Source: Campylobacterales bacterium
GTDB taxonomy: Bacteria; Campylobacterota; Campylobacteria; Campylobacterales; Sulfurimonadaceae
Assembly (NCBI GenBank): GCA_016938175.1
Contig: JAFGVE010000023.1
Coordinates: 62,001-126,000 of the forward strand
DNA: 64,000 bases
Reading direction: 5' to 3'
The translations under genes and the position numbers were made by a program. Positions 1,719-64,000 of this stretch are shown in pieces. How positions within the stretch are numbered: position 1 is the stretch's first letter; each line of letters begins with the position of its first letter. Below the pieces are notes generated by a model. The model had not been told where the DNA came from and searched no databases. It saw only the letters and a list, made by a program, of their open reading frames with translations.

Positions 1719-1740
1719 TTTTATACCTTTTGGTATAAAA
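1719..1740. terminator. Bidirectional hairpin between convergent genes
   Basis: Perfect 9-bp inverted repeat, TTTTATACC / GGTATAAAA, with a TTTT loop, placed directly after the stop codon of the DHOD-like gene. The complementary stop of the convergent methyltransferase (1721-1723) lies inside the stem. The T-rich arm makes it usable as a Rho-independent terminator on either strand. Function is inferred from position and symmetry. Confidence 0.65.
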
Positions 1741-2332: not shown

Positions 2333-2502
2333 ATATTTACCTTTCCAATCTCAATTTTCGTAATTAATATTAAATAATTTACATAAATTTTTTGCCCTAC
2401 AGAGAACCTGGGGATTATATCAAAAAGAAATAAAAGCTAAAAAATGCTATCCTTTCAAACTTTTATTTTCAGAAAATTTTACAATATAAAAAAAGGATAA
2501 AA

Positions 2503-5544: not shown

Positions 5545-5552
5545 GGTAATTT

Positions 5553-6254: not shown

Positions 6255-6290
6255 TTAGGCGACTTAGTTTTTTATCAAAGAGAATTTTAG

Positions 6291-6296
6291 TATAAT
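6291..6296 (+). promoter_or_regulatory. Predicted -10 box of aspC
   Basis: TATAAT preceded by TTTTAG, in the 83-base gap between cysE and aspC. This is the form of sigma-70 promoter typical of Campylobacterota, where the -35 region is replaced by AT-rich tracts. It leaves a leader of about 35 bases that includes the AAGGAA ribosome binding site. aspC can therefore probably be transcribed separately from the upstream operon. Confidence 0.6.
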
Positions 6297-6337
6297 CACA
6301 TCACAGTTTTAAGAGAATTACAACCAAGGAAATTAGA

Positions 6338-7507
6338 ATGCTTACAAACCGCATTAACACATTATCTGAGTCTATAACAATAGCTATTACAACATTAGCT
6401 CAAGAGTTAAAAGCTCAAGGAAAAGATATTCTTAGCTTTTCAGCAGGTGAACCAGACTTTGATACGCCACAAGTGATTAAAGACTCGGCGATTGCAGCTA
6501 TTAATGAAGGTTTTACAAAATATACTGCGGTTGATGGTATTCCTGCATTAAAAGAAGCAATTGCTACTAAACTAAAACGTGACAATAACCTCAAATACGC
6601 TCCTAATCAAATTATTGCAAATAATGGTGCTAAACACTCACTATTTAACCTTTTCGCTGCGACTATAGACGTTGGTGATGAAGTTATTATTCCATCACCG
6701 TACTGGGTTACATATCCAGAACTTGTAAAATACTGTGGCGGAACAGTTGTAGAGATTGAAACACAAGATGACAGCGGATTTAAAATCACTGCTGAGCAAC
6801 TCAAAAATGCAATCACTGCAAAAACAAAAATGCTCATTTTAACTACTCCTTCAAACCCTACAGGTTCTGTATACTCTAAAGAAGAGCTAACTGCTCTTGC
6901 AGAAGTTTTAAAAGGTACTGATATTATTGTAGCTAGTGATGAAATGTATGAAAAACTTGTTTATGAAGGTGAGTTTACTTCTGCAGCAGCTATAAGTGAA
7001 GATATGTACAACAGAACAGTTACTATTAATGGTTTAAGTAAATCTGTTGCAATGACTGGTTGGCGTTTTGGTTATATGGCTGCTGCTAATACAGAGCTTA
7101 TAAAAGCTACAAAAAAACTTCAATCACAAAGTACGTCTAACATAAATTCTATCACGCAACATGCTGCTATTACAGGTCTTAACGGTAGTGCAGATGCAGA
7201 TATAGAAATGATGCGTCAAGAGTTCAAAAAACGTCGTGATGAAGCAGTAAAACTTTTTAATGTGGTAGATGGACTTAGTGTAGTAAAACCAGATGGTGCT
7301 TTTTATCTTTTTGTTAATATCAAAGAAGTTGAACAAGACTCTATGAAGTTTTGTAAAGAACTTTTAGCAGAGCACGGTGTAGCTGTCGTTCCAGGCGTGG
7401 GCTTTGGAAGTGATGGTTATTTCAGATTTAGTTTTGCAACAGATATAGAGAGTATCCGTACTGGAATAGCTCGTATTGAAGAGTTTGTAAAAAGTCTTAA
7501 GAAGTAG
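6338..7507 (+). CDS. aspC: Aspartate aminotransferase-type class I/II aminotransferase
   Basis: 389-residue fold type I PLP aminotransferase of the subgroup Ib, interconverting aspartate/2-oxoglutarate and oxaloacetate/glutamate. Visible signatures: SFSAGEPDFDTP near residue 36, the YTAVDGIPALKEAIA segment, SPYWVTYPE, TTPSNPTGSVYS, SDEMYEKLVY, and the PLP-lysine motif INGLSKSVAMTGWRFGYM. RFSFATD with the carboxylate-binding Arg is near the C-terminus. Substrate range of this subgroup can include prephenate or other amino acids, so the exact donor is inferred. It has its own promoter and ends in a hairpin shared with the convergent small gene. Confidence 0.92.
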   Translation: MLTNRINTLSESITIAITTLAQELKAQGKDILSFSAGEPDFDTPQVIKDSAIAAINEGFTKYTAVDGIPALKEAIATKLKRDNNLKYAPNQIIANNGAKHSLFNLFAATIDVGDEVIIPSPYWVTYPELVKYCGGTVVEIETQDDSGFKITAEQLKNAITAKTKMLILTTPSNPTGSVYSKEELTALAEVLKGTDIIVASDEMYEKLVYEGEFTSAAAISEDMYNRTVTINGLSKSVAMTGWRFGYMAAANTELIKATKKLQSQSTSNINSITQHAAITGLNGSADADIEMMRQEFKKRRDEAVKLFNVVDGLSVVKPDGAFYLFVNIKEVEQDSMKFCKELLAEHGVAVVPGVGFGSDGYFRFSFATDIESIRTGIARIEEFVKSLKK

Positions 7508-7522
7508 GGAAAAACCTACTTC
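7501..7522. terminator. Hairpin shared by convergent aspC and small ORF
   Basis: Perfect 8-bp inverted repeat GAAGTAGG / CCTACTTC with a GAAAAA loop. The aspC stop TAG (7505-7507) and the opposite-strand stop TAG of the small gene (7516-7518) lie in the two arms and pair with each other. The following T-runs are short, so this may be a 3'-end stabiliser as much as a true terminator. Confidence 0.5.
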
Positions 7523-7716
7523 AATTCTTGTAATGCAGCTGTAACAGCATCAAGATTATCTAAAGGTATATGTACCTTCCACTCGGGATTTTCAGCATCC
7601 CCTACTAACGATATCCCAATACTCGCTACAGTAGCACTTTTTGGCCCATATGGCTCATCTATTTTAGTTACAGATATAACACCGTTTTTTGTTCCACTCA
7701 ATGGAATTGTAGTCAT
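7516..7716 (-). CDS. Small conserved-looking hypothetical protein, 66 residues
   Basis: I do not recognise this protein. It begins MTTIPLSGTKNGVISVTKI and ends in LDAVTAALQELK. The start at 7716 is preferred over an in-frame TTG at 7734 because AAGGAG lies 7 bases before the ATG. It has no signal peptide or membrane segment. The composition suggests a small beta-rich soluble protein with a C-terminal helix. It follows lpxD by 20 bases and is the last gene of ilvB-ilvH-lpxD, ending in the hairpin shared with aspC. The good ribosome binding site and operon position support a real gene. Confidence 0.65.
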   Translation of the reverse strand: MTTIPLSGTKNGVISVTKIDEPYGPKSATVASIGISLVGDAENPEWKVHIPLDNLDAVTAALQELK

Positions 7717-7736
7717 AGTCAGACTCCTTATCAAGT

Positions 7737-8687
7737 TTATTTGATAAGTCTAGCGAGTTTTGCCTGAATTTTGAGCCATAGTTTATGTTCCATAAAAGGA
7801 AAGCCGGCAAATGTTTTCCCACTCTCTTCTATAGTTTTCGTTACACCTGTTCGTGCAGCAAATGTATTAAAAGGCGCTATACTCAGGTGTCCAGCGACAC
7901 CTGATTGCGCTCCAAAAACATTGCTTCGACCTACTATACTTGAACCGGCAAAGCCTGTCTGTGCTGCAACAACACTCCCCTCGCCTATTTCACAATTATG
8001 AGCAACTTGAATGAGGTTATCGAGTCTTGCACCTTTTTTTATAAGTGTTGTACCAAATACAGCTCTATCAATAGTTGTACATGCACCAATTTCAACATCA
8101 TCTTCAATGACAGCATTGCCGTTGTGGTAAATTTTTTTATGCTCACCCAAACGGTTTGATGCAAATCCAAAACCATCACTTCCAATTGCAGTTGAAGCAT
8201 GAATAATACAGTTTGCACCTATATGACACTCTCTATAAAGTGTTACATTAGGATAAAGAATAGTATTATCGCCAACAGTTGCGTTTGTACCTATATAAAC
8301 ACCCGGCATGATAGTACAGTTTTTACCAATTACAGAGCCCTTTGCCAAATAAGCAGTTGTAGCGATACTACTTCCTTCTCCAATCACAGGCGCATCACCA
8401 TCTGCATCTTCTATAGTAGGAGCAAACTCTTTTGAAAGTTTTGCCATCTCCCAGTATGGAGATTCAACTACTAAAGCAACACATCCTTGAGGAACCTTGT
8501 GACTACTTTTAGCATCTACGATAATTGCTGCCGCATTGGATGTTGTAACATCTTTAAGATATTTTGCATTTGCTACAAAAGAGAGCTCAGATGCATTTGC
8601 ATCTTTAAGTGTATTCATCGCCGAGATTTCTACCTCTTCTCCATGAAATTCTGCACCAATAAGTTTAGCAATTTCACTGAGTTTCAT
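7737..8687 (-). CDS. lpxD: UDP-3-O-acylglucosamine N-acyltransferase
   Basis: 316-residue enzyme adding the N-linked 3-hydroxyacyl chain to UDP-3-O-acyl-glucosamine in lipid A synthesis, at the cytoplasmic side of the membrane. The N-terminal uridine-binding domain (about residues 1-100) precedes a hexapeptide-repeat left-handed beta-helix from about residue 105 ([20 protein letters not shown]) to 290. The catalytic His lies in [12 protein letters not shown]. Length is near the usual 320-340. It starts 3 bases after ilvH, so it is cotranscribed with branched-chain amino acid genes. No other lipid A gene is adjacent. Confidence 0.95.
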
Positions 8688-8690
8688 ATA

Positions 8691-9167
8691 CTATCTCTCT
8701 AATGCGACTGCGCCGCTTCTTACAATCTCTTTTGGGTTATAGCGTTTAATAACAGTTAAAAAGTTATCAACACGTTGTGGTTCATCTGCAACCATAGCGA
8801 TAACCACATTTTCACTTGAATTTACAATTTTTCCATTATATGCACGACATAAAGTGTCTATATCTGTAAGATTTTCAGTTACAGGAAACTTCACAAGAGC
8901 CATCTCTTTTTCAACCATATCACAGTGCTCATAAACACGTAAAACAGGAACAAGCTTATGAAGCTGTTTTGTAATCTGCTCTATAACACGCACTGAACCA
9001 GCAGTAACAATTGTTAAACGTGAGTACTTAGTATCTGGAATTGGAGCTACAGTCAATGATGTAATGTTATAACCACGTCCAGAGAAAAGGTTTGTAATAC
9101 GAGAGAGAACACTCGCCTCGTTTATAACAATAACAGAAACAACTCTTCTTTCATTACTTTCAGTCAC
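8691..9167 (-). CDS. ilvH: Acetolactate synthase, small regulatory subunit
   Basis: 158-residue regulatory subunit that binds valine and controls acetolactate synthase. An N-terminal ACT domain (VVSVIVINEASVLSRITNLFSGRGYN) is followed by a second ACT-like half, the usual plan for about 160 residues. The start codon is GTG and shares one base with the ilvB stop (TAGTG), with GGAGA seven bases upstream, so translation is coupled to ilvB. Feedback inhibition by valine is known for the family. Confidence 0.95.
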   Translation of the reverse strand: MTESNERRVVSVIVINEASVLSRITNLFSGRGYNITSLTVAPIPDTKYSRLTIVTAGSVRVIEQITKQLHKLVPVLRVYEHCDMVEKEMALVKFPVTENLTDIDTLCRAYNGKIVNSSENVVIAMVADEPQRVDNFLTVIKRYNPKEIVRSGAVALER

Positions 9168-10864
9168 TATTTTGTCTCCTTTTTCTCTAATAACATCATA
9201 TTAAACAGACTTCCACCTGCTGGAACCATTGGCATAACGTTTTCATGTCTCTCAACCATAACTTCAATAAACGCAACTACATTTTTTTCTACTGCATCTT
9301 TAAGTGCTGCATCAAACTCTTCTTTTGTTGTAACTCTATACCCTATACCACCAAAAGCCTCTGAGAGCTTTACAAAGTCGGGTTGTACTGATAAGTCAGT
9401 TTCAGAGTGACGTTTGTCATAAAAAAGCGTCTGCCACTGACGTACCATACCAAGGTAGTTATTATTTAAAATGATATTTATAACTGGTATTTTTTTCTCA
9501 ACTGCCGTCATAAGTTCTTGAACATTCATAAGAATAGAACCATCACCCGTGAAGTTAATTGAAACTTTTTCAGGAGCCGCTACTTTGACACCCATAGCCG
9601 CTGGAAAACCAAATCCCATAGTCCCAAGTCCACCAGAACTTATCCATTGACGTGGACGAGAAAATGGATAGAACTGTGCTGCCCACATCTGGTGCTGTCC
9701 AACGTCTGTAGAGATATTTGCATCATCACCTAAAAGTTGACCAACTCTTTCAATTACCCATTGTGGCTTAATTCGCTCACTATCTTCATGATACATTAAA
9801 GGATGTAATTCATCAAAATTCGCTATAGTCTCTCTCCAGCCCTCATAACGTGTACTGTCTACAAGATTTACACTCTCCAGCATATCTTCTACAACACTTT
9901 TTACATCACCAACAATTGGATAGTCTGCGTTTACAAGCTTTGAGATAGAAGCAGGATCAATATCAACATGGATAATATCTGCACCTTTAGCAAATTCAGA
10001 AAGTTTTCCCGTAACACGGTCATCAAATCTTGCACCTAAAGCAATAACTAAATCTGTTTCACTCATAGCCATATTAGCTGCATATGAACCGTGCATTCCA
10101 AGCATAGAGATTAGCATAGGATCATCGTATGAAAGTACACCTCTAGCCATAAATGTTTCAACCGCAGGAATTTGTGTTTTTTGCACTAACTCTCGAACCT
10201 CATACGCTGCATTTGAGTTAATGATTCCACCACCAAGATAAAAGAGTGGACGTCTTGCTTTTGCAATCGCTTCCATTGCCTTTTTAATTTGGCGTGGATT
10301 CCCTTTTATGTGTGGCTTATATGTCTCTAAGTCAAGTTCAATATCATAATTAAACTCTTCAATCTGAGCTGTTACATCTTTTGGAATGTCAACATGAACA
10401 GGACCTGGACGACCAGAATTAGCAATATAAAATGCTTCTTTGAGTATACGTGGTAAATCTTTTGCATCAGTAACTAAATAGTTGTGTTTCGTACATGGAC
10501 GTGAAATACCAATTGCATCTATCTCCTGAAAACCGTCCGTACCTATAAGACTCATAGGCACTTGACCAGAGATAACGACTAATGGAATTGAGTCCATATA
10601 AGCATCTGCAAGACCTGTTACAGCATTTGTAAAACCTGGTCCAGATGTAATCATTGCTACGCCAACTTTTCCGCTCGCTTTTGCATAACCTTCTGCAGCA
10701 TGGACTGCTGCTTGCTCGTGGCGCGTTAAGATATGCTCAAATCCATCTTGTTTATAGATTTCATCATAGACATTCATAATAGCTCCGCCAGGGTAACCAA
10801 ATACTGTTGTTACACCCTCTGCGATAAAGGCCTCAATGACCATTTGCGCACCGCTTATTTGCAT
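9167..10864 (-). CDS. ilvB: Acetolactate synthase, large catalytic subunit
   Basis: 565-residue TPP enzyme condensing two pyruvates, or pyruvate with 2-oxobutyrate, in valine/leucine/isoleucine synthesis. The TPP-activating Glu lies in LTRHEQAAVHAAEGYAKA; ITSGPGFTNAVTGLADAYMD and the Mg/TPP motif GDGSILMNVQELMT...NIILNNN are intact. FAD-domain residues are present in GARFDDRVTGK. AGGAGA precedes the ATG. ilvB has its own promoter and heads ilvB-ilvH-lpxD-small ORF. ilvA lies on the same strand further upstream, so the isoleucine precursor enzyme is nearby but separately promoted. Confidence 0.96.
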   Translation of the reverse strand: MQISGAQMVIEAFIAEGVTTVFGYPGGAIMNVYDEIYKQDGFEHILTRHEQAAVHAAEGYAKASGKVGVAMITSGPGFTNAVTGLADAYMDSIPLVVISGQVPMSLIGTDGFQEIDAIGISRPCTKHNYLVTDAKDLPRILKEAFYIANSGRPGPVHVDIPKDVTAQIEEFNYDIELDLETYKPHIKGNPRQIKKAMEAIAKARRPLFYLGGGIINSNAAYEVRELVQKTQIPAVETFMARGVLSYDDPMLISMLGMHGSYAANMAMSETDLVIALGARFDDRVTGKLSEFAKGADIIHVDIDPASISKLVNADYPIVGDVKSVVEDMLESVNLVDSTRYEGWRETIANFDELHPLMYHEDSERIKPQWVIERVGQLLGDDANISTDVGQHQMWAAQFYPFSRPRQWISSGGLGTMGFGFPAAMGVKVAAPEKVSINFTGDGSILMNVQELMTAVEKKIPVINIILNNNYLGMVRQWQTLFYDKRHSETDLSVQPDFVKLSEAFGGIGYRVTTKEEFDAALKDAVEKNVVAFIEVMVERHENVMPMVPAGGSLFNMMLLEKKETK

Positions 10865-10909
10865 GAAAAGTCTCCTATGTAAAATTATAATTTTTCAAAA
10901 AATTACGCG

Positions 10910-10915
10910 ATTATA
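10910..10915 (-). promoter_or_regulatory. Predicted -10 box of ilvB operon
   Basis: TATAAT on the minus strand (in CTGTATAATCGCG), giving a leader of about 40 bases before ilvB. The leader contains an AT inverted repeat (10889-10904, AATTTTT / AAAAATT) and AGGAGA. I see no attenuator peptide or T-box. Confidence 0.6.
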
Positions 10916-10969
10916 CAGAAATTGAACTATGATTGAGGTTAAAGAGGGATTTATATAACTATCTAAAAG

Positions 10970-13096
10970 CTATTCTAAGATTGAGTGAACAATCATTGAG
11001 GGTCTCCACATATTAATTGAACCCTGAGTAAGATGTTCCAACGAGAGTTTTGATTGTGGATAAGTCTCTTTAAAATAATAAAAAAAGTTTTCAATTTGAT
11101 CTTGCAAACCGAAATTCAGCATATAGTTTTTAATTCCATTTTCCACTACTGCTTGGGGTTGCTTTTCATTTATTGCTTTTTCAAGTTGTGCCATATAGCA
11201 AAGACCAAAAATTGTACCTATAGCAACATATTTTGAAGATATTTTCATATATGCTTCGAGAGACTTTTCTAAACCTACGATATCTCCATCAACTGCATAC
11301 TTATTAGCTTTTGCAAGAACTTTATTCCACTCTTCTTGTAAAGTTTTTCCGTCTTCAGTCTCTTGTAGATCTTCAGTCTTTGCCATCATGTTGTATGCGG
11401 TTGCCATATCTTTTTCTTCAACTGCTTTAAAAAACTTTTGACGTGCATCTATATCTTGCATTAGTTCTCTAACTTCAAGCGCGAAATCCGGAAAATCAAT
11501 TAAAACACGTAATACTCTAAGAGCTCCATGAGTATCACCATTTTGAATAAGTGTTTGGGATTTAATATATAAAGTGTCTGCATAACGCATTAAAGATTCA
11601 TACTCAGGAAACTCTTGTAAAAATGGATGTTGCTTCAAAAGTTCAAAACTAATTTTAAAATCTTTTTGTCCAATTGAGACACGAAAACGTTTGTAAACTT
11701 CTCCCTGTGTTAAAAGTTCCTGAATTAATTTCGTTTTTTCACTTATACCTCTATAAGGTGATAAAATCTCTTTTGCTTTTTCTGCACCTTTAATTTCTAG
11801 TGAATATTTTTGTGCCAATGTAAAAGTTTTTTGCCAATTTACTTCCATCTGTTTATAGAGTTTTGAGTCTTTATAAATAGGATATTTATTTGCTAATGAA
11901 TAAGCTAGTGGGAGTTTTCCTTGTTGTATAAAAAGTTTAAATTTATCAAACTCTTCATAATCCTTTATAACTTGTTGCATAATTCTATTTTTCGAAGGAA
12001 CATTTTTAAAGTTTTTAAAGAGAAGAACTGCCTTGTTTTTATCCCCATTTTGCAGAGCCACAACTGCTTTTTCAAGTGTTTTTTCCCATAAATTAGCAAC
12101 TAAATCGTAAATCGCTGTATATGCTAGAATTGGATTATACTCAGTGGAGTTTTGAATGGCTTCAAACTCTTTTTGTACGAGAAGTTCTTTGAGTTTATCT
12201 TCTCCTTCATAAATGTCATAGGCAATTAAAAAACCATCTTCCGTTCCCAAAAGCAGGTGATGACTCTCATCATCAAACTCCATTGCAGTAATTGGAGAGG
12301 TAATTTTGATATATTTTGGTGAGAGCAACTCATAGGTATGAAGATTATAAACCAGTACATATCCTAAAGCAGTTCCTAAAAAAAGAAACTTCTCATCTCC
12401 ACTGATACACATTTTTATAACATCATCATGAATTCCCTGAAGCCTATCAATAACTGAAAGTGTTGTTAAATCCCAAATAATTGCATTAGCATCTTTATCA
12501 ATACTAATGAGCTTATTTTTATGAAAAAATGCAACATGCATTATAGGTGCACTATGGGCTTTTAACTTCCCTTTTGGAGTCATAGTAACGAGATTAAAGA
12601 TAGAAACCTTTCTATCATAGCTAACCGTTGCTACCCAGTTTCCATTATCGCTAAATGCTATATCATTAATTGTATCAATATGAACTGGCAGCGTAAAAAC
12701 AAGATTTCCGTTTTTAGTGTCCATAGCAAATGTTTTACCGTCATCACCACATGAGAACATATATCTGTTAAGAGGATCAATACCTACACAAGAGGCTTCT
12801 CCATGGTGTCTATCAACCTTGGTAATCATCTTTTTTGTCTCTGTACTGTAGAGTCTGGATTCTCGACAATCAGACGTGAGAGTAGCAAAATACTCACCAT
12901 TATTGCTAAAGGTAAAAATAGGAGCTTTATAGCGAAGATGAGTAATACTTGCTTTAAAACCATTAAGCATATCAAAGCTATCTTTATCTAAAAAACGTAT
13001 TGTCGTATCGGCATCAACAACAGCTAAGCGCTTGTCGTCAAATATTTTAAGTGATACTATAGCTCTTTTAATGCTTTTAGATTTTAAAATTTTCAT
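10970..13096 (-). CDS. WD40 beta-propeller protein with C-terminal helical repeats
   Basis: 708-residue protein with no signal peptide or membrane segment, so probably cytoplasmic. Residues 1-300 are WD40-like blades (for example AFSDNGNWVATVSYDRKVSIFNL and LISIDKDANAIIWDL). Residues 330-708 are all helical and contain three copies of a repeat of about 85 residues beginning at K385, R470 and K554 (KFKLFIQQGK, RFRVSIGQKD, KFFKAVEEKD), each with a (A/S)YxLxxxxPxL-like second helix. No known domain name fits the C-terminal half. It lies 3 bases after ilvA and is presumably cotranscribed; no functional link is evident. A propeller plus helical solenoid suggests a scaffold. Function unknown. Confidence 0.8.
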   Translation of the reverse strand: MKILKSKSIKRAIVSLKIFDDKRLAVVDADTTIRFLDKDSFDMLNGFKASITHLRYKAPIFTFSNNGEYFATLTSDCRESRLYSTETKKMITKVDRHHGEASCVGIDPLNRYMFSCGDDGKTFAMDTKNGNLVFTLPVHIDTINDIAFSDNGNWVATVSYDRKVSIFNLVTMTPKGKLKAHSAPIMHVAFFHKNKLISIDKDANAIIWDLTTLSVIDRLQGIHDDVIKMCISGDEKFLFLGTALGYVLVYNLHTYELLSPKYIKITSPITAMEFDDESHHLLLGTEDGFLIAYDIYEGEDKLKELLVQKEFEAIQNSTEYNPILAYTAIYDLVANLWEKTLEKAVVALQNGDKNKAVLLFKNFKNVPSKNRIMQQVIKDYEEFDKFKLFIQQGKLPLAYSLANKYPIYKDSKLYKQMEVNWQKTFTLAQKYSLEIKGAEKAKEILSPYRGISEKTKLIQELLTQGEVYKRFRVSIGQKDFKISFELLKQHPFLQEFPEYESLMRYADTLYIKSQTLIQNGDTHGALRVLRVLIDFPDFALEVRELMQDIDARQKFFKAVEEKDMATAYNMMAKTEDLQETEDGKTLQEEWNKVLAKANKYAVDGDIVGLEKSLEAYMKISSKYVAIGTIFGLCYMAQLEKAINEKQPQAVVENGIKNYMLNFGLQDQIENFFYYFKETYPQSKLSLEHLTQGSINMWRPSMIVHSILE

Positions 13097-13099
13097 ACA

Positions 13100-14305
13100 C
13101 TACCTGCTTCTAAGATAACCCTCTTTTTGCAAGGTATCACGTATTTGCTTTTGGTGTTCCTTGCCTTTTGTTTCCATATGTACAGTCACGTTTGCATCCC
13201 CATAATCTAAGGAGATTGCTGTTCTGTCATAAGAGATATGGACTATATTTGCATTTAAGTCTTGTAAAATCTGAGTAAAACGCATAAGTGAACCAGGCTT
13301 ATCTATAAGCGTTACAGTCAACTTCATCTTACGTCCTGACTTTAAAAGACCTTTTTCAATAATGACAGAGAGAAGTGTTACATCCATATTGCCACCGCTT
13401 AAGACAACAGCAACTTTTTTATTTTTAATATCTGTAACTTTATTATGTAAAAGCGCAGCCACACCAACGGCACCTGCCCCTTCAACAACAAGCTTTTGCT
13501 TCTCTAAAAGATATAAAATTGCACTTGCTATCTCCTCATCATCTACAGAGATAACTTCATCAACATATTTGAGTGCATACTCCAAAGTTATAGACGATGT
13601 ATCGCGAACAGCTATACCATCTGCAATGGTTCTTACACTTGTCGAATCAATAGGTGTTTTTAACTCAAAAGAGTTTTTAAAAGCCGGTGCGCCACTTGCA
13701 CTCACCCCAATAACACGTATAGAAGGATTACTCTGTTTAATAGCAGTTGCAACACCTGCAATAAGTCCTCCACCACCGATTGGTACGATGATAGTATCAA
13801 GCTCTTCACAGTTTTCAAGAATCTCTAAACCAATGGTTCCCTGCCCCGCAATAACTTCCGCATCTTCAAATGGATGTACAAAAGTTAAAGAGTGTTTTGT
13901 TCCATACTCTATTGCGTAAGCATAGGCTTCATCGTAATTTCCACCCGCTAAAATAACCTCTGCACCATAATGTTTTACACCATTAATTTTTGTCAAGGGT
14001 GTTGATTCTGGCATAACAATAACTGCACGAATATTAAACAAGGATGCAGAGAGTGCAACGCCCTGTGCATGATTTCCTGCACTTGCTGCAATCACACCAC
14101 AAGCTCTTTGATCTTCGGTTAAAGAGGCTATTTTATTATATGCTCCACGAATTTTAAAAGCGCCCGTAATTTGAAGGTTCTCTTTTTTTAAATAAATCTC
14201 TGCGGAACTTATCTCACTCAAATAAGGGGCGTAGGCGAGAGGTGTTCTTGCAATAACACTCTCTATAGCTTTACGGGCATCTTGAATTTTTTCTAAATGT
14301 ATCAA
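13100..14305 (-). CDS. ilvA: Threonine ammonia-lyase (threonine dehydratase)
   Basis: 401-residue PLP enzyme deaminating threonine to 2-oxobutyrate for isoleucine synthesis. The PLP lysine lies in ENLQITGAFKIRGAYNKI; AASAGNHAQGVA, the phosphate-binding GGGGLIAG and the Ser-containing VVLSGGNMD are intact. One C-terminal ACT domain (residues about 325-400, KLTVTLIDKPGSLMRF) is present, as in the short IlvA/TdcB-with-ACT form. The start is TTG, with GAGAGA four bases upstream; no ATG is available near the conserved N-terminus. It precedes the WD40 gene by 3 bases. Confidence 0.92.
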   Translation of the reverse strand: MIHLEKIQDARKAIESVIARTPLAYAPYLSEISSAEIYLKKENLQITGAFKIRGAYNKIASLTEDQRACGVIAASAGNHAQGVALSASLFNIRAVIVMPESTPLTKINGVKHYGAEVILAGGNYDEAYAYAIEYGTKHSLTFVHPFEDAEVIAGQGTIGLEILENCEELDTIIVPIGGGGLIAGVATAIKQSNPSIRVIGVSASGAPAFKNSFELKTPIDSTSVRTIADGIAVRDTSSITLEYALKYVDEVISVDDEEIASAILYLLEKQKLVVEGAGAVGVAALLHNKVTDIKNKKVAVVLSGGNMDVTLLSVIIEKGLLKSGRKMKLTVTLIDKPGSLMRFTQILQDLNANIVHISYDRTAISLDYGDANVTVHMETKGKEHQKQIRDTLQKEGYLRSR

Positions 14306-14318
14306 CTAATCTCTCGTT

Positions 14319-14744
14319 TTACAGGTTTCTATGTTCTACCATACTACAATGGCTTTGTACGACTTTCATCCCAGCATCTTCAGCTTTTTGTGCTGCAGCA
14401 TTATTCACAATACCCTTTTGTGTCCAAAAAACTTTTACATTTCCTTTTTCAATACAGGCATCTGCAATTGCACCAAGAGCATCTGGCTTTCTAAAAATAT
14501 CTACCATATCAACATCAAAAGGAATTTCTAATAGAGAACGGTACACTTTTTCACCTAAGATGGTCTCTTCTTTTGGATATACGGGAATTATTGTATATCC
14601 AGCCTCTTTTAAATATTTTGCAACTTTATGAGAATCTTTTGTCTCATCTGGTGAGAGTCCTAAAATAGCTATAGTTTTTACTGTGTCAAAAATCTCTTTA
14701 ATCTCTTCTTTGTTTGAATTAACACTTGGAAATTCACACTCCAC
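14319..14744 (-). CDS. CoA-binding protein, YccU type
   Basis: 141-residue single-domain Rossmann protein of the CoA_binding_2 family. Visible are TIAILGLSPDETKDSHKVAKYL (nucleotide-binding turn), GYTIIPVYPKEETILGEKVY and the C-terminal VVQSHCSMVEHR segment. Members bind CoA, but no enzymatic role is established. The start is GTG with AAGGAG five bases upstream. A predicted promoter lies just upstream, and ilvA starts 13 bases after its stop, so it probably leads a CoA-binding protein-ilvA-WD40 unit. Confidence 0.85.
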   Translation of the reverse strand: MECEFPSVNSNKEEIKEIFDTVKTIAILGLSPDETKDSHKVAKYLKEAGYTIIPVYPKEETILGEKVYRSLLEIPFDVDMVDIFRKPDALGAIADACIEKGNVKVFWTQKGIVNNAAAQKAEDAGMKVVQSHCSMVEHRNL

Positions 14745-14785
14745 AACGGCTCCTTAAAATATATATATGTTTAATTAAAACATTT

Positions 14786-14791
14786 ATTATA
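14786..14791 (-). promoter_or_regulatory. Predicted -10 box upstream of CoA-binding protein / ilvA
   Basis: Minus-strand TATAAT in GCTATAATAAATG, about 41 bases before the GTG start. Just downstream, within the leader, is an inverted repeat ATGTTT-AATTA-AAACAT (14767-14783) that could be an operator or be chance in AT-rich DNA. Confidence 0.55.
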
Positions 14792-14799
14792 GCGAAAAG

Positions 14800-15543
14800 C
14801 TACAGGATTTTCTCTTGCCCTAGCCTATAAAGCGCAAAATCATACTTTAGCGGATCATCACCATCAAACTCTTTGAGTTTTTCAGTCAGTTCAATAGCAG
14901 CCTGCAAATCATACGTTTTTCTCTTCAGTAAACCTAATCTTTGACTTGTATGAAAAGTATGTGTATCTAAAGGAATAATCAAATCACTCAAGGTGACTCC
15001 TTGCCACAATCCCATATCAATAGCATCATCTCTCACCATCCAACGTAAATACATCATCCAGCGTTTGAGTGCACCTGCACCTTTTGTTTTATCTGAAACT
15101 TTTGAGAGTAAAAAATCATATCCGCTTGAGTTGTGCGTATAGTATTGCCGCAATCTCTCAATGAGCCTGGAAAGACCATCTAAAACACTTCTTTTCTGGA
15201 GATACCCTTCTAAAAAAACAGCTTCTAAACTACTATGTACATTGAAACGTTTAAGAGCTATAAATAGTGCTATTATGTCCTCACTTTTTTGAAAACGGTA
15301 GTAATGGTTTTGCAGGGCATCTCTTATTACATCATCACTCTTTGTAAGCAGAGAAAAATCTAATGACTCTAAAAACTTTACAATTTGCTTGACACTACCG
15401 TATGAAAAAAGTGCACAGATAAGTGCAACACTCTCATCATTATACTTGTGTGCCACAATAATTGGATCTAGCTTCTCCTGATTTACTTCTGTAGCTATAT
15501 TACGCTTTTTAACCTCTTTGTCGAGTATTTCTTTTATATTCAA
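14800..15543 (-). CDS. TIGR02757 (DUF2400) family protein
   Basis: 247-residue soluble protein of a conserved family with no assigned activity. Family-typical segments are ALICALFSYGSVKQIVKFL, the RYQKSEDI-like stretch (here YRFQKSEDIIALF), LKRWMMYLRWMVRDDAIDMGLW, and IPLDTHTFHTSQRLGL. The alpha-helical layout with LDTH resembles helix-hairpin-helix glycosylase-like proteins, but that is only a suggestion. The start is TTG directly after the rpoN stop, with AGG about 8 bases upstream. It ends the S4-trpD-tsaE-lptB-rpoN operon. Confidence 0.85.
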   Translation of the reverse strand: MNIKEILDKEVKKRNIATEVNQEKLDPIIVAHKYNDESVALICALFSYGSVKQIVKFLESLDFSLLTKSDDVIRDALQNHYYRFQKSEDIIALFIALKRFNVHSSLEAVFLEGYLQKRSVLDGLSRLIERLRQYYTHNSSGYDFLLSKVSDKTKGAGALKRWMMYLRWMVRDDAIDMGLWQGVTLSDLIIPLDTHTFHTSQRLGLLKRKTYDLQAAIELTEKLKEFDGDDPLKYDFALYRLGQEKIL

Positions 15544-16815
15544 CTATAGACCTAGTTGGTAAAGTTTTTTACGTTCACTTGAACCTGCAATATTTAACTG
15601 TTTTCTATATTTAGCAATCGTTCTTCGTACCATTTTTACTTTGAACTTATCTTGTATAAGTTCTAAAAGCTTCATGTCACTTAAAGGTTTTTCTCTGCTC
15701 TCTTCTTTGATGAGTCCTTGTAAAAACTCTTTAATTGCGGCATTTGAAACATCTTCATCGATTGCAGTTGTAAAAAACTCTTTCATGGCAAAAACACCAC
15801 GGTCGCAAGCTATATACTTGTTTGCTATAGCCCGAGAAATGGTTGAAGGATTATGTCCGAACTCATCTGCTAAAGTTTTCAAAGTCAAGGGCATTATCTG
15901 CCCACCTGTAAAAAACTCATACTGATACTCGACAATCATAAGTCCTACTTTATAAAGTGTGGCTTTTCTCATCTCAAGTGCATCCACCAAAGATTTTGCT
16001 TCTTTAATCTTCTGTGAAATAAACTCATGTTCAACACCATAATTGGTATCAATATGTATACTTGGATAGTAAGCATCATTAAGCTTTACTTCTATATTTT
16101 CATCCTCATTGAAGTAAATCATCAAATCGGGCACAATCTGTGCTGATTCTTCTTGATACTCTAAATTCGGAGGATTTTTAAACGTTGAGATAACTTTCAT
16201 AACCTCTGCAAAATGTTCATGTTTAGAGTAACTATATATCTCTTGTATATTATTAATTATCTCTAAGGCTAAACTATACGCACCATCAGAAATTTCAGCG
16301 TTTTCGAGTTGAAACAGGAAAGATTCAGCCAAATTACATGCGCCTATTCCAAGAGGTTCCAAATGTGCAAAACGGCGTCTTATTTTTTCAAAGTCATTAC
16401 TGCTAATCCCTTCTGATTGACAAAATTTTTCACTGTCTCCTTCATAATAGCCATTTTCATCCAAGTTTTCTATAACAAACAAGGCTATTTTTTGGGAAAT
16501 TGGAGTTGGAAAGAGTGGTGCTTGTATCTGTTCATCAAGTACCTCATAGAGTGTTCTACTTTGAAGTGTTAGTGCTTCTATCTGTTCTGTACGAGAATTA
16601 CTGACACTGCCTGAGATAACCTTCTTTGGAATTTTTTTCTCAAAATCCTCTTCATAGCCTGAAGAGACTTCAACAACCGGGTTTGCTTCTACAAACGGTG
16701 CCATTGCCTCACCTAAATCTGAAAGACTGGAGTGTAAAATAGGCAACCAGTTACGTAGAGTATTTGAAAGTTTATGTTTTGTTTCTACGCTCTGTGTTTG
16801 CCTTAATACTGCCAT
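15544..16815 (-). CDS. rpoN: RNA polymerase sigma-54 factor
   Basis: 423-residue sigma-54. The core-binding and activator-interacting N-terminal region is short and the usual Gln-rich segment is reduced. The C-terminal RpoN box is visible as RRTIAKYRK (residues 397-405, consensus RRTVAKYRE). The helix-turn-helix lies around GHNPSTISRAIANKYI, followed by the typical GVFAMKEFFT. In Campylobacterota RpoN drives the class II flagellar genes with an FlgR activator. It lies between lptB and a TIGR02757 gene; the lptB-rpoN pairing is widespread in Proteobacteria, and I recall tsaE-lptB-rpoN in C. jejuni. Confidence 0.96.
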   Translation of the reverse strand: MAVLRQTQSVETKHKLSNTLRNWLPILHSSLSDLGEAMAPFVEANPVVEVSSGYEEDFEKKIPKKVISGSVSNSRTEQIEALTLQSRTLYEVLDEQIQAPLFPTPISQKIALFVIENLDENGYYEGDSEKFCQSEGISSNDFEKIRRRFAHLEPLGIGACNLAESFLFQLENAEISDGAYSLALEIINNIQEIYSYSKHEHFAEVMKVISTFKNPPNLEYQEESAQIVPDLMIYFNEDENIEVKLNDAYYPSIHIDTNYGVEHEFISQKIKEAKSLVDALEMRKATLYKVGLMIVEYQYEFFTGGQIMPLTLKTLADEFGHNPSTISRAIANKYIACDRGVFAMKEFFTTAIDEDVSNAAIKEFLQGLIKEESREKPLSDMKLLELIQDKFKVKMVRRTIAKYRKQLNIAGSSERKKLYQLGL

Positions 16816-58889: not shown

Positions 58890-58938
58890 TTATTAGCTCC
58901 GCTTTATCTTGAGAGGAAGATTGAAACCTTGCTAATAA
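58890..58938 (-). terminator. Nested hairpins at the 3' end of the LTA-synthase-like gene
   Basis: An 8-bp inverted repeat TTATTAGC (58938-58931 on the minus strand) pairs with GCTAATAA 33 bases later, enclosing a second hairpin ATCTT-CCTCTC-AAGAT. The last arm is followed by GTTTTG. The first arm includes the gene's stop codon. A terminator is the simplest reading; the large loop is unusual. Confidence 0.4.
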
Positions 58939-60812
58939 TCAAGGTATGTTTGGAGAAGTTTTTCCATATAAACATTCCCTTTAATTCGCAATCCATCTGC
59001 TTTTCCATTTTCCAAAAGTACTCTATTTTGTCTCAGATCATATGAAAGATTCCCTTCGGGTGTAATGAATCCAAAACCATTGTCTACAAGGATATAGGCA
59101 CTTGGTTTATACTCATCTGCAAAAAGATCACGACTCCAAATAAATTTTGAATGATCCAAATTCATCTGTGAGAGTAAAGTAGCAGCTATATCTCTTTGAG
59201 AAGCTATTTTCTCATACTGATACCCTCTATACTCTTGCTTTATAACATCTCCGTAAAACATCATTGGGATGTGATGCCATCTTGGGTCATGTCTCTGCCA
59301 ACCAAAAGGAGTATGATGCGAATGGTCTGCTACGATGATAAAAAGTGTATTTTTATACCATGGCTCTTTTTTCGCAGACTCAAAAAACTCGCCCAAAGAT
59401 TTATCTGTATAATAAACAGAGTTTAAATATCCTTTGTCAGAGTCTCCCCACTCTATGACATCTTTCATTGGTTGATCATATGGGGAGTGCGAGCTTAGAG
59501 TAAACATAGAACTAAAAAAAGGCTCTTTAAGTTGTGAAGTTTTTTGAACAAGATACTGCATCATATAACCATCATGATAACCCAAAACTCCCTCTTGCTC
59601 AGAAGGTAAGTTAATATTGCTATTTTCTTCGATAATGTCAAACCCATTTCCATACATATATGAAGTGAGATTTCCATAACGCAACTGCCCTCCAAAAAGA
59701 AACATACTTGTATATCCACTCTCTTTTAGGGACTGTGTTAAAAAAGGGAGTTTATAAAACTTTGAAGGAAGATTTGTCATATAGGTTCCTTCTATTGCCG
59801 GCCAGCCTGAAAGAACGGAAGGAAGTCCTTCATGAGAGAGTGTTGCGCTTGAGTAAGCATTTGTAAACAAAATCCCGTTTTTAGAGAGTTTCATAAAATT
59901 GGGAATAACCTCTTGATAATGTGTTGTATTTATAAAATCTCCGGCTAAACTCTCCCAAAAAATCAATACAACGTTTGGACGCTCTGTGCTTAAGAAACTC
60001 TCTCTTGGTGCACCTTGCGTAGTTGCCATGAGTTCTTGAAGTATTTTCTCTTTTTTCTCCTCTTCCAAATCTATCGCATAATGGTTAATACCATCAATAA
60101 CCACTTGATTTTCAGTAATACTATGCCCAAAGTTATAGACTGTACTAATAGCCAAATCATTAAAGACTTTATGTTTAGAAAAATAGACACTTGCTTGAGA
60201 AATTGGAATCTCTTTATAACCTCCGCGTGCACCTAAAAAAATAAGCGGTGCGAGTAAAAAAATTAAAAATGTTGCAAAATAGTTTCTTGGTGTAGTAAGT
60301 TTATAGCTACTGTAAAGTGATTTTGTAAGTTTATAAAAGACTCCAAAAACTATAAGCATAATCACTGTTAAAAGTATTGTTAAAAGTATTGGATTAGAAG
60401 CGATAGCCTCATCAGGGTGCTTTAAATAGTTAAAAATTTTAAAAGTCGGTTTCTCTTCCCATTCATTGTAAATACCCAATTCTATGATGTATATAAACGT
60501 AGAGATAAGTAAAACACCTAAGGTATACACAAAGAGCAAAGCCTTTAAATATTTTGACTTAACAAGAGAATTTATTGTCAAAATAAGCCAGGGAATAACA
60601 ATCAAAATTGAGGCAGAAGCGATATCAAGGCTAAGGGCATTATAGTAGGCTAAAATTGTTTCATAGTAAGGATTAGAAGCTACTTGAAGTTTATCCCAAT
60701 AATAAACGACAAAGATAGTTCTAAAAGTCTCAATGAAAAGTAAAAAAAGTAAAAAATGTTTTAAAAGGGTATAAAAAATATTTTGCAACTCTATTTTAAA
60801 ATTACTCTGCAT
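58932..60812 (-). CDS. LTA-synthase/phosphoglycerol-transferase-like membrane sulfatase-fold enzyme
   Basis: 626 residues from ATG 60812 (GGGG six bases upstream). About five N-terminal helices span residues 10-195; the periplasmic alkaline-phosphatase/sulfatase-fold domain runs from about 278. Metal and catalytic residues are visible: Glu287 in IFWESLAGD, Thr324 in AYSSATLSHEG, and ADHSHHTPFG. Family members transfer phosphoglycerol or phosphoethanolamine-like groups from phospholipids to sugars. Gram-negative members decorate periplasmic glucans or LPS; the acceptor here is unknown. It is divergent from the GT39-UbiA-GtrA-DprE1 genes. Confidence 0.85.
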   Translation of the reverse strand: MQSNFKIELQNIFYTLLKHFLLFLLFIETFRTIFVVYYWDKLQVASNPYYETILAYYNALSLDIASASILIVIPWLILTINSLVKSKYLKALLFVYTLGVLLISTFIYIIELGIYNEWEEKPTFKIFNYLKHPDEAIASNPILLTILLTVIMLIVFGVFYKLTKSLYSSYKLTTPRNYFATFLIFLLAPLIFLGARGGYKEIPISQASVYFSKHKVFNDLAISTVYNFGHSITENQVVIDGINHYAIDLEEEKKEKILQELMATTQGAPRESFLSTERPNVVLIFWESLAGDFINTTHYQEVIPNFMKLSKNGILFTNAYSSATLSHEGLPSVLSGWPAIEGTYMTNLPSKFYKLPFLTQSLKESGYTSMFLFGGQLRYGNLTSYMYGNGFDIIEENSNINLPSEQEGVLGYHDGYMMQYLVQKTSQLKEPFFSSMFTLSSHSPYDQPMKDVIEWGDSDKGYLNSVYYTDKSLGEFFESAKKEPWYKNTLFIIVADHSHHTPFGWQRHDPRWHHIPMMFYGDVIKQEYRGYQYEKIASQRDIAATLLSQMNLDHSKFIWSRDLFADEYKPSAYILVDNGFGFITPEGNLSYDLRQNRVLLENGKADGLRIKGNVYMEKLLQTYLDY

Positions 60813-60899
60813 ATAAGACCCCACTTAAATGAACTAAATGCGGAAGTATACTTTTTTAGTGATAATAGTTTGTTAACTTCTATAGAACCTTTTCTTGTG

Positions 60900-60937: not shown

Positions 60938-62356
60938 ATGCTAGAAAAACTTTACAACACACCACAAAAAAGTGCTTATATTATTATTCTCTTGCTTGCA
61001 CTTGGTTCAACAATTTACAATATTTATCTGCCTATTCATGGTGATGAAGCATATTACTGGATGTGGAGTCATCATATAGAGTCTGGTTACTATGACCACC
61101 CTCCTATGATTGCCTACATGATCTATTTTACAAATTTCATCTCCCAAGATGTTTGGGGTGTAAGGCTTGTAAATATTTTTAGTATGAGTATCGCTTTTCT
61201 CTATATGTACAAACTTGCAAGGCTTGTATCTAATGAGAGAACTGCTCTCACGACAATACTTATTTTTTCATCTGTCATCTTGACACATGCAGGGTTTATT
61301 TTTGCAACTCCAGATGCTCCTCTCACACTCTTTTGGACACTGACACTTTATTACACATACAAGGCTCTATTTGAAGAGAAAGCTTTAGACTTTTTACTTG
61401 CGGGTATTTTTTTAGGTGCTATGATGCTTAGTAAATACTCTGCTATTTTATTTGTTGCGGGAGTAATTATTTTTGCACTTGTTAAAAAGCGCTCTCTTTT
61501 TATAAATATACATTTTTATATAGCGCTTCTTGCTTCAGTTATTGTCATAGCACCTATGCTTTACTGGAACTACAAACATGAATGGATTAGTTTTCTATTT
61601 CAAATCAATCATGGAACAACACAAGACTTTGTTATCAAACCCTGGCTTATTTTTGAATTTCTCAGTTCACAGTTTGCTGTTTTTTCACCTGTATTTATGG
61701 GTGTTTTACTCTTCTACCTCATAAAAGACAAGCTCTATTTTCAAGATGACAAACTCTTTTTTTTGGCACTTAGTACAGTTGTAACCCTACTCTTTTTTAC
61801 ATATAAAAGTTTTTATATGAGTATGGCACCTAGCTATAGCGCTCCTGCCTATATAAGCGGTGCTGTTTTACTTGCAATCATCTTTGAACGCTATGAACTC
61901 AAAAAGACATTTGCCATAGGCCTTATAATTGCCCTAATATTTACACTTTTAGCACGCTATATTTTACTCTTTCACCTTCCTGAAGTGCAACGTTTTATGT
62001 ACAAAACAAAAGAGGTTGTAGCACAGTTTGCAACTCATGCAAGAAAGGGAGACCACTTTTATGGAGCACACCTGACAACTGCGGCATCATTACAGTTTTT
62101 TCTGTCTGGACATCCACAAACGGATGTAGCTATAGACGATAGATATTCTCAATACGATATGTGGCGTGATGAGAAGGAGTGGCATAAAGAAGGACTGGTT
62201 CTTGCCCGTAACACTAAACGTGATGCAGATCTAAAAAAGTACTATAAAACTGTTGAACTTATAGACACAAATGTAGTGCTTCCAAATAGAGTTTTTTATA
62301 CTTATAGAGTTAGTGAGCCTTACACACAAGAAGAACTCAAAGCGAGACAAAAATGA
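60938..62356 (+). CDS. Glycosyltransferase family 39 (ArnT/PMT-like)
   Basis: 472-residue membrane GT-C enzyme with about 10-11 helices. The catalytic acidic motif is in the first periplasmic loop (HGDEAYYWMWSHHIESGYYDHPPM, Asp36-Glu37), the PMT_2 arrangement. The C-terminal region (about 365-472) is a periplasmic/soluble tail. Such enzymes use polyprenyl-phosphate sugars to glycosylate lipid A, proteins or glycans. Being next to a DPPR-synthase-like gene, it may use a polyprenyl-phosphate pentose. It overlaps the next gene by 4 bases (ATGA). Confidence 0.88.
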   Translation: MLEKLYNTPQKSAYIIILLLALGSTIYNIYLPIHGDEAYYWMWSHHIESGYYDHPPMIAYMIYFTNFISQDVWGVRLVNIFSMSIAFLYMYKLARLVSNERTALTTILIFSSVILTHAGFIFATPDAPLTLFWTLTLYYTYKALFEEKALDFLLAGIFLGAMMLSKYSAILFVAGVIIFALVKKRSLFINIHFYIALLASVIVIAPMLYWNYKHEWISFLFQINHGTTQDFVIKPWLIFEFLSSQFAVFSPVFMGVLLFYLIKDKLYFQDDKLFFLALSTVVTLLFFTYKSFYMSMAPSYSAPAYISGAVLLAIIFERYELKKTFAIGLIIALIFTLLARYILLFHLPEVQRFMYKTKEVVAQFATHARKGDHFYGAHLTTAASLQFFLSGHPQTDVAIDDRYSQYDMWRDEKEWHKEGLVLARNTKRDADLKKYYKTVELIDTNVVLPNRVFYTYRVSEPYTQEELKARQK

Positions 62357-63213
62357 AAGATATTATCACACTTCTTCGCCCCCATCAATATATAAAAAAT
62401 CTTTTTATATTTGCACCAATATTATTCGCATTTCACTTTACCCAAGAAAATTTTATAGATGCACTCATTGCATTCATCCTGTTTAGTCTTTCGGCAAGTG
62501 GTATCTACGTTTTAAATGATTATATGGATGTAGAAGAGGACAAAAAGCATCCAACTAAAAAAAGCCGCCCTTTGGCTTCAGGTGCCATTTCAATGACACA
62601 CGCAAACTTTCTCTTTTTGGGACTAAGCGCCATATCTGTATTTTCTGCACTCGCTTGGAACAAAAATCTCGCTATTGTGCTTTTTATCTATATAGTGCTC
62701 AATATTCTCTACTCCATCAAACTTAAGCACATAGCCATTGTAGACATTTTTATCATATCTACAGGTTTTGTTTTGCGCCTTTTTGCAGGTGCGGTTGCAA
62801 CACAAACTCCACTCTCTATGTGGATAATTTTAATTACCTTTCTTCTCGCTATTTTTCTTGCTCTTGCCAAACGTAGAGATGATGTACTTCTATCTCTTCA
62901 GGGAAAAGAGACACGTAAAAATATAGACGGCTACAATTTAGAGTTTGTCAATGCAGCGATGGTGCTTATGAGTGGAGTTGTAATAGTCAGTTACCTCCAA
63001 TATAGTGTTTCTGCAGAAGTTATTGCAAGAGTTGGAAGCCAGTACTTATACCTCAGTACTTTTTTTGTTCTTCTTGGTATTCTTCGCTATATGCAAATTA
63101 CCTTTGTAGAACAAGCAAGTGGAAGTCCAACCAAAATAGTTTTAAAAGACAGATTTTTACAAATTACTATTTTCCTCTGGCTTGCTAGTTTCATAGCTTT
63201 AGCAAAACTCTGA
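62353..63213 (+). CDS. DPPR-synthase-like UbiA prenyltransferase (polyprenyl-phosphate phosphoribosyltransferase)
   Basis: 286-residue membrane protein with about eight helices. The first aspartate motif is VLNDYMDVEEDKKHPTKKSRP (residues 53-73); NDxxDxExDxxHPTKxxRP is the form seen in mycobacterial Rv3806c and NoeC rather than in ubiquinone enzymes. The second motif region reads KRRDDVLLSLQGK (178-190). The predicted reaction is transfer of phosphoribose from PRPP to a polyprenyl phosphate. Coupling to GT39 (4-base overlap) and GtrA (1-base overlap) and the following DprE1-like gene support this. Confidence 0.88.
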   Translation: MKDIITLLRPHQYIKNLFIFAPILFAFHFTQENFIDALIAFILFSLSASGIYVLNDYMDVEEDKKHPTKKSRPLASGAISMTHANFLFLGLSAISVFSALAWNKNLAIVLFIYIVLNILYSIKLKHIAIVDIFIISTGFVLRLFAGAVATQTPLSMWIILITFLLAIFLALAKRRDDVLLSLQGKETRKNIDGYNLEFVNAAMVLMSGVVIVSYLQYSVSAEVIARVGSQYLYLSTFFVLLGILRYMQITFVEQASGSPTKIVLKDRFLQITIFLWLASFIALAKL

Positions 63214-63608
63214 TGCTTGCCATTCGTTATATACTTTTCGCACTTGCTTCAACGCTTCTCAACTTAGGATTTCAATATCTTAGTTTCGCTTTTTATAAAG
63301 GTTTTTTATCTCTATATATAGCCATGTTCTTTGGAACACTTGCAGGACTTATCTTAAAGTATATGCTTGATAAAAAATATATCTTCTTTCATACACCTAA
63401 AACAAAAAAAGATGATGGTAAAAAATTTATGCTTTACTCTCTTATGGGAGTCTTTACAACCTTTATATTTTGGGGATTTGAAATAGCTTTTGATTTTCTC
63501 TTTGCAGATGAAAATGCAAAATATGCAGGTGCACTTCTTGGACTTAGCATAGGCTATATAGTAAAATATCAACTCGATAAAAAATTTGTCTTTAAGGATG
63601 GTGTGTGA
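63213..63608 (+). CDS. GtrA family membrane protein
   Basis: 131-residue protein with four predicted helices (about 5-25, 30-50, 72-92, 103-120), the standard GtrA layout; the ends of helices 2 and 4 carry the repeated LKYMLDKKYIF / VKYQLDKKFVF motif. GtrA proteins are thought to flip or support polyprenyl-phosphate sugars. Its stop overlaps the GTG start of the DprE1-like gene. In mycobacteria a GtrA protein (Rv3789) sits beside dprE1, so the context matches. Confidence 0.88.
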   Translation: MLAIRYILFALASTLLNLGFQYLSFAFYKGFLSLYIAMFFGTLAGLILKYMLDKKYIFFHTPKTKKDDGKKFMLYSLMGVFTTFIFWGFEIAFDFLFADENAKYAGALLGLSIGYIVKYQLDKKFVFKDGV

Positions 63609-64000
63609 GTCTACTCAGTTGGGGAATGTATCCAAAAATACAAAACAAAGCCTTTTTAGTAGATAGTAGTGCAAAACTTGCAGAGTATCTCAAAGAACCT
63701 AGGGAGTATATACCTTTTGGTAATGGACGTAGCTATGGAGATAGTGCATTAGCAGAAAACATCCTGAATATAAAACCTTACGACTACTTTTTACACTTCG
63801 ATGCAGAAGCAGGTATACTTCACGCTCAAGCGGGTGTCTTACTCAGTGATATACTTGAGGCTTTTGTTCCACAGGGATGGTTTTTAAAAGTAACACCGGG
63901 AACAAAGCTTATCACGCTTGGTGGAGCTATTGCTTCTGATGTACACGGAAAAAATCATCATGTTCAAGGCTGTTTTAGTGAATGCGTAGAAGAGTTTACT
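63605..64000 (+). CDS. DprE1-like FAD-dependent decaprenylphosphoryl-ribose 2-oxidase (3' end outside window)
   Basis: The first 132 residues, from a GTG overlapping the GtrA stop, are open to the window end. The FAD-binding signatures are PFGNGRSYGDSALAE (residues 37-51) and TPGTKLITLGGAIASDVHGKNHH (97-119), which match DprE1 closely, including the HGKNHH segment with the histidine expected to contact FAD. DprE1 oxidises polyprenylphosphoryl-ribose at C2, and DprE2 then reduces it to the arabinose epimer. The rest of the protein, including the residue equivalent to mycobacterial Cys387, is not visible. Confidence 0.85.
   Translation, partial: MSLLSWGMYPKIQNKAFLVDSSAKLAEYLKEPREYIPFGNGRSYGDSALAENILNIKPYDYFLHFDAEAGILHAQAGVLLSDILEAFVPQGWFLKVTPGTKLITLGGAIASDVHGKNHHVQGCFSECVEEFT

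Follow-up and report, generated by a model that had tools for sequence, protein, structure and literature searches.

A predicted six-gene module for extracytoplasmic pentofuranosylation in a Campylobacterales genome of the family Sulfurimonadaceae

Organisation of the locus

A self-contained module of six genes that is probably dedicated to extracytoplasmic pentofuranosylation, including transfer of the sugar to an envelope acceptor by the GT-C protein GT39b, was found at the end of the analysed DNA of a Campylobacterales bacterium and in the continuation of its contig. Downstream of another PMT_2 gene, GT39a, the gene order is UbiA-GtrA-DprE1-DprE2-GT39b-HAD phosphatase. Its product, as predicted from sequence, is a pentofuranose donor carried on a lipid, with polyprenyl-phosphate D-arabinofuranose as the likeliest form.

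The window, meaning the whole stretch of 64,000 nucleotides that was analysed, corresponds to G000:C8:62001-126000; the source assembly is 2.26 Mb in 44 contigs, and the contig runs on beyond the window edge. Window numbering is kept past this edge, and positions in the extended locus L003 are given in brackets (L003 position + 59999 = window position). The features are as follows:

60938-62356, forward strand: GT39a, a PMT_2 GT-C protein of 472 aa (PMT_2, 110.7 bits)
62353-63213, forward strand: putative UbiA-superfamily polyprenyl-phosphate phosphoribosyltransferase (DPPR-synthase-like) of 286 aa (UbiA, 92.4 bits)
63213-63608, forward strand: GtrA-family small membrane protein of 131 aa (GtrA, PF04138, 30.4 bits)
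63605-64897 (L003 end 4898), forward strand, crossing the window edge at 64000: DprE1-like FAD oxidase of 430 aa (FAD_binding_4, 60.1 bits)
64900-65631 (L003 4901-5632), beyond the window edge on the same contig: DprE2-like SDR
65628-67121 (L003 5629-7122), beyond the window edge on the same contig: GT39b, the second PMT_2 protein
67131-67709 (L003 7132-7710), beyond the window edge: HAD-IB phosphatase (PF12710, 114.5 bits)

The run of four overlapping genes (GT39, UbiA, GtrA and DprE1-like) described in the earlier note is present as described: the overlaps GT39a/UbiA, UbiA/GtrA and GtrA/DprE1 measure 4, 1 and 4 bases, respectively, and the motifs NDYMDVEEDKKHPTKKSRP and HGKNHH are both found there. 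The family matches of these four genes are far beyond chance.

The genes on the 3′ side of the HAD gene encode a flippase-like protein (LPG_synthase_TM), members of the GT9 and PAP2 families, the third PMT_2 protein of the region and a metallophosphatase of the purple-acid type. This group (L003 8049-13714) is a conserved locus in the genus, kept with or without the arabinose module, and its product is unassigned. On the other side, divergent from GT39a, a gene on the reverse strand (58932-60824) encodes a membrane sulfatase-family protein distantly similar to phosphoglycerol transferase/LtaS (53 bits). In L130, L131, L133, L135 and L136 this gene is likewise kept as a neighbour of GT39a and the module.

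Enzymes of donor synthesis

The UbiA protein scored 216 and 212 bits against two decaprenyl-phosphate phosphoribosyltransferase models and passed the cut-off of the second, NF008978 (211.7 bits, cut-off 207), compared with 34 bits against the UbiA 4-hydroxybenzoate model and the heme O synthase model. Its closest solved relative in a PDB sequence search was Rv3806c (8j8j, E = 1.1e-42). The structure paper on Rv3806c names residues that bind PRPP, Mg or pyrophosphate (PMC10994848), and R22, K28, Y70, N73, D77, K87, R90, Y138, K143 and K208 of Rv3806c are all identical in the aligned UbiA. A quick tree placed a quinone-type UbiA as a remote outgroup and Rv3806c on a long branch, the exact place of which is unsure. 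In this tree the UbiA of a metagenome-assembled genome named Sulfurimonas (L032) lies close to that of G358, a genome of the host family. A prenylquinone (UbiA/MenA-type) enzyme, a grouping raised in the earlier note, is ruled out by the profile scores (34 versus 216 bits) and by the outgroup position. The profiles, the Rv3806c match, the shared residues and the tree all mark this protein as phosphoribosyltransferase-type, and it is the predicted synthase of a three-component pentofuranose system.

Mycobacterial DprE1 structures were the best PDB matches of the DprE1-like protein (E = 2.6e-74), with homology over nearly the full length. In the alignment to mycobacterial DprE1, the HGKNHH motif and the equivalent of Lys418 (K388) are retained, whereas Ala357 stands in the place of Cys387, the benzothiazinone target. 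A DprE2-like reductase, sought downstream at the suggestion of the earlier note, is the next gene: the best PDB match of this SDR is mycobacterial DprE2 (E = 9.8e-29), and a YGSTK motif is present. It also passes PRK07102 (342.7 bits, cut-off 267), an SDR family with no named function. Both proteins fell under the NCBIfam equivalog cut-offs (392.7 bits against 500 for NF053785; 164.6 bits against 250 for NF053786, the DprE2 equivalog) and are therefore named DprE1-like and DprE2-like.

For the same reason another epimer is possible. A differing regiochemistry of the oxidase and reductase would yield a pentofuranose other than D-arabinofuranose, and ribofuranose and xylofuranose systems of a similar kind do exist (PMC11127046). 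This outcome appears improbable, as HGKNHH and K388 are retained, the known xylofuranose system uses a single ORF13-type SDR and the DprE1/E2 pair accompanies arabinofuranose in the cases surveyed (PMC11127046). D-arabinofuranose is thus preferred below.

GtrA is a probable flippase of the lipid-linked sugar, judging from its family: it scored 165.5 bits with NF037976 (gtrA_1, cut-off 50), and its position between UbiA and DprE1 is kept in most related Campylobacterota loci. The GtrA-family protein Rv3789 has been linked to arabinosylation, with a disputed role as flippase or anchor (PMC7389260). The HAD-IB protein carries DFDGT and GDSEGD motifs and is the predicted phosphatase of the system.

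Proposed pathway and comparison with known systems

What the sequences show directly is the protein families, the active-site residues, the linkage of the genes and their co-inheritance; the individual reactions, the nature of the sugar, the function of GtrA as a flippase and the acceptor are inferred. UbiA would transfer 5-phosphoribose from PRPP to a polyprenyl phosphate (probably undecaprenyl phosphate), and the HAD protein would remove the 5′-phosphate. The ribofuranosyl lipid would then be converted to polyprenyl-phosphate D-arabinofuranose at C2, through oxidation by DprE1 and reduction by DprE2. GtrA would flip the lipid to the periplasmic side, where GT39b, an ArnT-like GT-C protein, would hand arabinofuranose on to a molecule of the envelope; a surface glycan, either in the LPS core/lipid A region or a polysaccharide, is the likeliest acceptor. 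The lipid-linked pentose pathway put forward in the earlier note is supported by the DprE2-like neighbour, the HAD protein and the phosphoribosyltransferase-type UbiA.

Kelly et al. (2024) described a common pathway of polyprenyl phosphoribose synthase, phosphatase, optional epimerase, flippase and GT-C transferase, with the three-component prototype in Citrobacter youngae O1/O2 (PMC11127046). In that survey, arabinofuranose systems contain DprE1/E2 homologues, and Citrobacter has a HAD-synthase fusion (PMC11127046). By its gene content, the present module fits this class, a concept published in 2024. It shares with C. youngae the synthase and HAD phosphatase, the optional epimerase, the flippase and the GT-C protein, and one sister cassette described below likewise adjoins Wzm/Wzt-like genes. 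It differs in having HAD as a separate gene, a predicted flippase of the GtrA rather than the MATE family, a two-enzyme DprE1/DprE2 epimerase and a PMT_2 transferase with a predicted ArnT-like fold.

Tuberculosis bacteria use lipid-bound arabinose for their cell wall, and the mycobacterial decaprenyl-phosphate arabinose pathway comprises Rv3806c, DprE1/DprE2, Rv3789 and Emb/Aft. The synthase, the epimerase pair and the GtrA-family protein are homologous in the two systems. The candidate transferase resembles ArnT rather than Emb/Aft in its best fold match, and the phosphatase is a HAD protein, other than the Rv3807c type, which counts against our main reading.

In Pseudomonas paraeruginosa, arabinosylation of pilin by PSPA7_6245-6251 with TfpW is established (PMC12369383). 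Both systems belong to Gram-negative bacteria, lie on genomic islands and combine lipid-linked D-arabinofuranose (predicted here) with a GT-C protein; they differ in that the sampled host genus has no PF00114 pilin and the transferase gene lies within the module. Among the papers searched, none dealt with arabinofuranose in Sulfurimonas and none treated DprE1 together with Azorhizobium.

The candidate transferase

Carriage was counted in 120 congeneric genomes, with GT39b called at ≥49% identity and GT39a at ≥52%. GT39b and DprE1 occur together in 28 genomes, GT39b without DprE1 in one and DprE1 without GT39b in two (Fisher p = 7e-24, kinship ignored). In the sole GT39b-only genome (G440), the contig (L143) ends inside DprE2. 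In the phylum as a whole, GT39b was found in 11/397 genomes, all 11 of them among the 20 DprE1 carriers. The figures for GT39a are 11 genomes with both genes, 21 with GT39a only and 19 with DprE1 only (Fisher p = 0.16, kinship ignored).

At the sites L126, L127, L128, L137, L138 and L139, the flippase-like gene comes immediately after GT39a, and at L003, L124, L129 and L130 the six genes lie between the two. A different site is used in other congeners, where GT39a is missing and the six genes are commonly flanked by a DJ-1/PfpI-like gene and a conserved gene of 352 aa. GT39a therefore looks like the upstream host gene of one insertion site; a fixed place in the module is ruled out by the empty sites and the lack of a significant association with DprE1. 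The earlier note had assigned transfer to the GT39 protein in the window. This protein is probably not the dedicated transferase, given the empty sites and the 21/120 genomes that have it without detected DprE1; GT39b, inside the module, is the better candidate.

A role of GT39a as the arabinosyltransferase, or as a second one beside GT39b (e.g., in priming versus extension), is unlikely. It would agree with the 4-base overlap of GT39a with UbiA and with a subgroup that keeps GT39a beside the module but lacks the downstream locus, where GT39a may have a secondary role; in L133, L134 and L136 the flippase-like gene was not found after GT39a. However, DprE1 was not detected in 21 of the 32 GT39a carriers (one of them, G483, has UbiA beside GT39a and counts here only through its contig end), 19 of the 30 DprE1 carriers have no GT39a, and the empty-site genomes possess GT39a without this donor set. 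A PDB sequence search with GT39a gave nothing useful.

The preferred candidate, GT39b, has invariant D31-E32, Y47-D48-H49-P50-P51, N119-D120 and C-terminal cysteines in an alignment of 24 members. Its AlphaFold model (pLDDT 87, pTM 0.87) retrieved ArnT first in Foldseek (E = 9e-7), and VIA-align superposed 423 residues on ArnT with Z 26.8, rmsd 4.4 and 14% identity; Pmt4 (23.2), the OST proteins and AftA (16.4) ranked below ArnT. ArnT transfers L-Ara4N to lipid A from a donor that is an undecaprenyl-phosphate pentose; the predicted donor of GT39b is D-arabinofuranose. The modelled resemblance to ArnT (GT83) is a match of fold only, and a shared fold says nothing on donor or acceptor. As a PMT_2 protein with a predicted ArnT-like fold that is co-inherited with DprE1, GT39b corresponds to the dedicated GT-C component of three-component systems.

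Distribution and apparent mobility

The distribution of the module in Campylobacterota is patchy. The DprE1 model matched 20/397 genomes of the phylum, in 11/68 genera, and 30/120 genomes of the host genus. The supposition that the pathway would be unusual in the phylum is thus only partly correct.

A DprE1 scan of genome contigs returned at least 588 stretches. The nearest named hits are Campylobacterota, and the best 80 of these loci belong to Campylobacterota, Pseudomonadota, Bacteroidota, Chlorobiota, Kiritimatiellota and others, and most of those with enough flanking sequence cluster UbiA, DprE1 and DprE2, often with GtrA and HAD. The core is not specific to mycobacteria: it is common in Pseudomonadota and Bacteroidota, with its synteny kept in these and other groups. 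In several Pseudomonadota relatives UbiA is longer (about 476-520 aa), a length that suggests a fused domain and would fit, by analogy, the HAD-synthase fusion of Kelly et al.

With its many weakly supported forks, the DprE1 tree is compatible with one origin of the GT39b cassette as well as with several. The six-gene module is apparently transferable. Cassettes were also seen in metagenome-assembled genomes assigned to Desulfamplus (L027, 75% DprE1 identity), Cyclobacteriaceae (L031, 69%) and Klebsiella (L074, 45%); they may reflect transfer or binning error and were left out as evidence.

Two loci depart from the usual content. In L132 (G477, 1476-15900) UbiA is short (194 aa), extra ORFs separate it from DprE1, no GtrA was found, HAD is short and the flippase-like gene is split; this module looks decayed or interrupted. 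In L107 (G060, 6182-11783) the order is GtrA-DprE1-DprE2-GT39b-HAD with no UbiA detected alongside, and a cation-exchanger-like gene of 346 aa occupies the place of UbiA.

The acceptor

Cassettes with other large membrane proteins in place of GT39b were found in G480, in G443 and as a second copy in G403. These proteins are 615-649 aa long and match no Pfam family above cut-off. The second copy in G403 (L140) is surrounded by glycosyltransferase genes (GT2, GT4) and one for an initiating transferase (Bac_transf), and the G480 cassette (L141) adjoins Wzm/Wzt-like ABC exporter genes. In L141 the HAD gene is separated from the gene of the membrane protein by a reverse-strand gene (5111-5944) for an Asp/Gly-rich RTX-like repeat protein. 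The GT39b module itself is followed by a Wzz protein in L119 and by Poly_export and Wzz/kinase proteins in L120. These neighbours point to a surface polysaccharide or LPS, and an envelope glycan is the likeliest acceptor, for the GT39b cassette by analogy with the sister cassettes.

The type IV pilin family PF00114 was detected in 0/120 congeneric genomes, which speaks against such a pilin as the target. Flagellin is present in the source genome but gave no match in the carriers G404 and G252 (99-100% completeness), which speaks against it as an obligatory target. Wzy_C (O-antigen ligase/polymerase) occurs in 81/120 genomes, offers no useful contrast as a marker and is absent from the carrier G404. 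The acceptor is therefore most likely independent of all three. Among the targets first envisaged (envelope, pilus or flagellin), the envelope is favoured, while pilus and obligatory flagellin are weakened.

A protein acceptor of the kind seen in P. paraeruginosa is rather unlikely, whether flagellin, pilin or some other protein of the cell surface. D-arabinofuranose on type IV pilin has a precedent (PMC12369383), protein O-mannosyltransferases are among the GT-C folds that GT39b matched, and the source genome could supply flagellin. Set against this are the pilin and flagellin counts above and the best fold match of GT39b, ArnT, which is a lipid A enzyme. A surface glycan is thus preferred.

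Biological implications

It is possible, though somewhat doubtful, that GT39b is the founding member of its own family of ArnT-like D-arabinofuranosyltransferases, that it travels with a mobile module of six genes, and that in Sulfurimonadaceae it decorates the LPS core/lipid A region or some envelope acceptor other than O-antigen. Because GT39b pairs almost strictly with DprE1, it is a candidate new arabinofuranosyltransferase. DprE1-type enzymes are widespread outside mycobacteria, and the one described here naturally has no cysteine of the kind hit by benzothiazinones. The modules appear to be portable, combining a donor set (UbiA, GtrA, DprE1, DprE2 and HAD) with varying large membrane proteins, and occupy differing chromosomal sites within one genus. 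Lipid-linked pentofuranose systems would thereby be extended to Campylobacterota.
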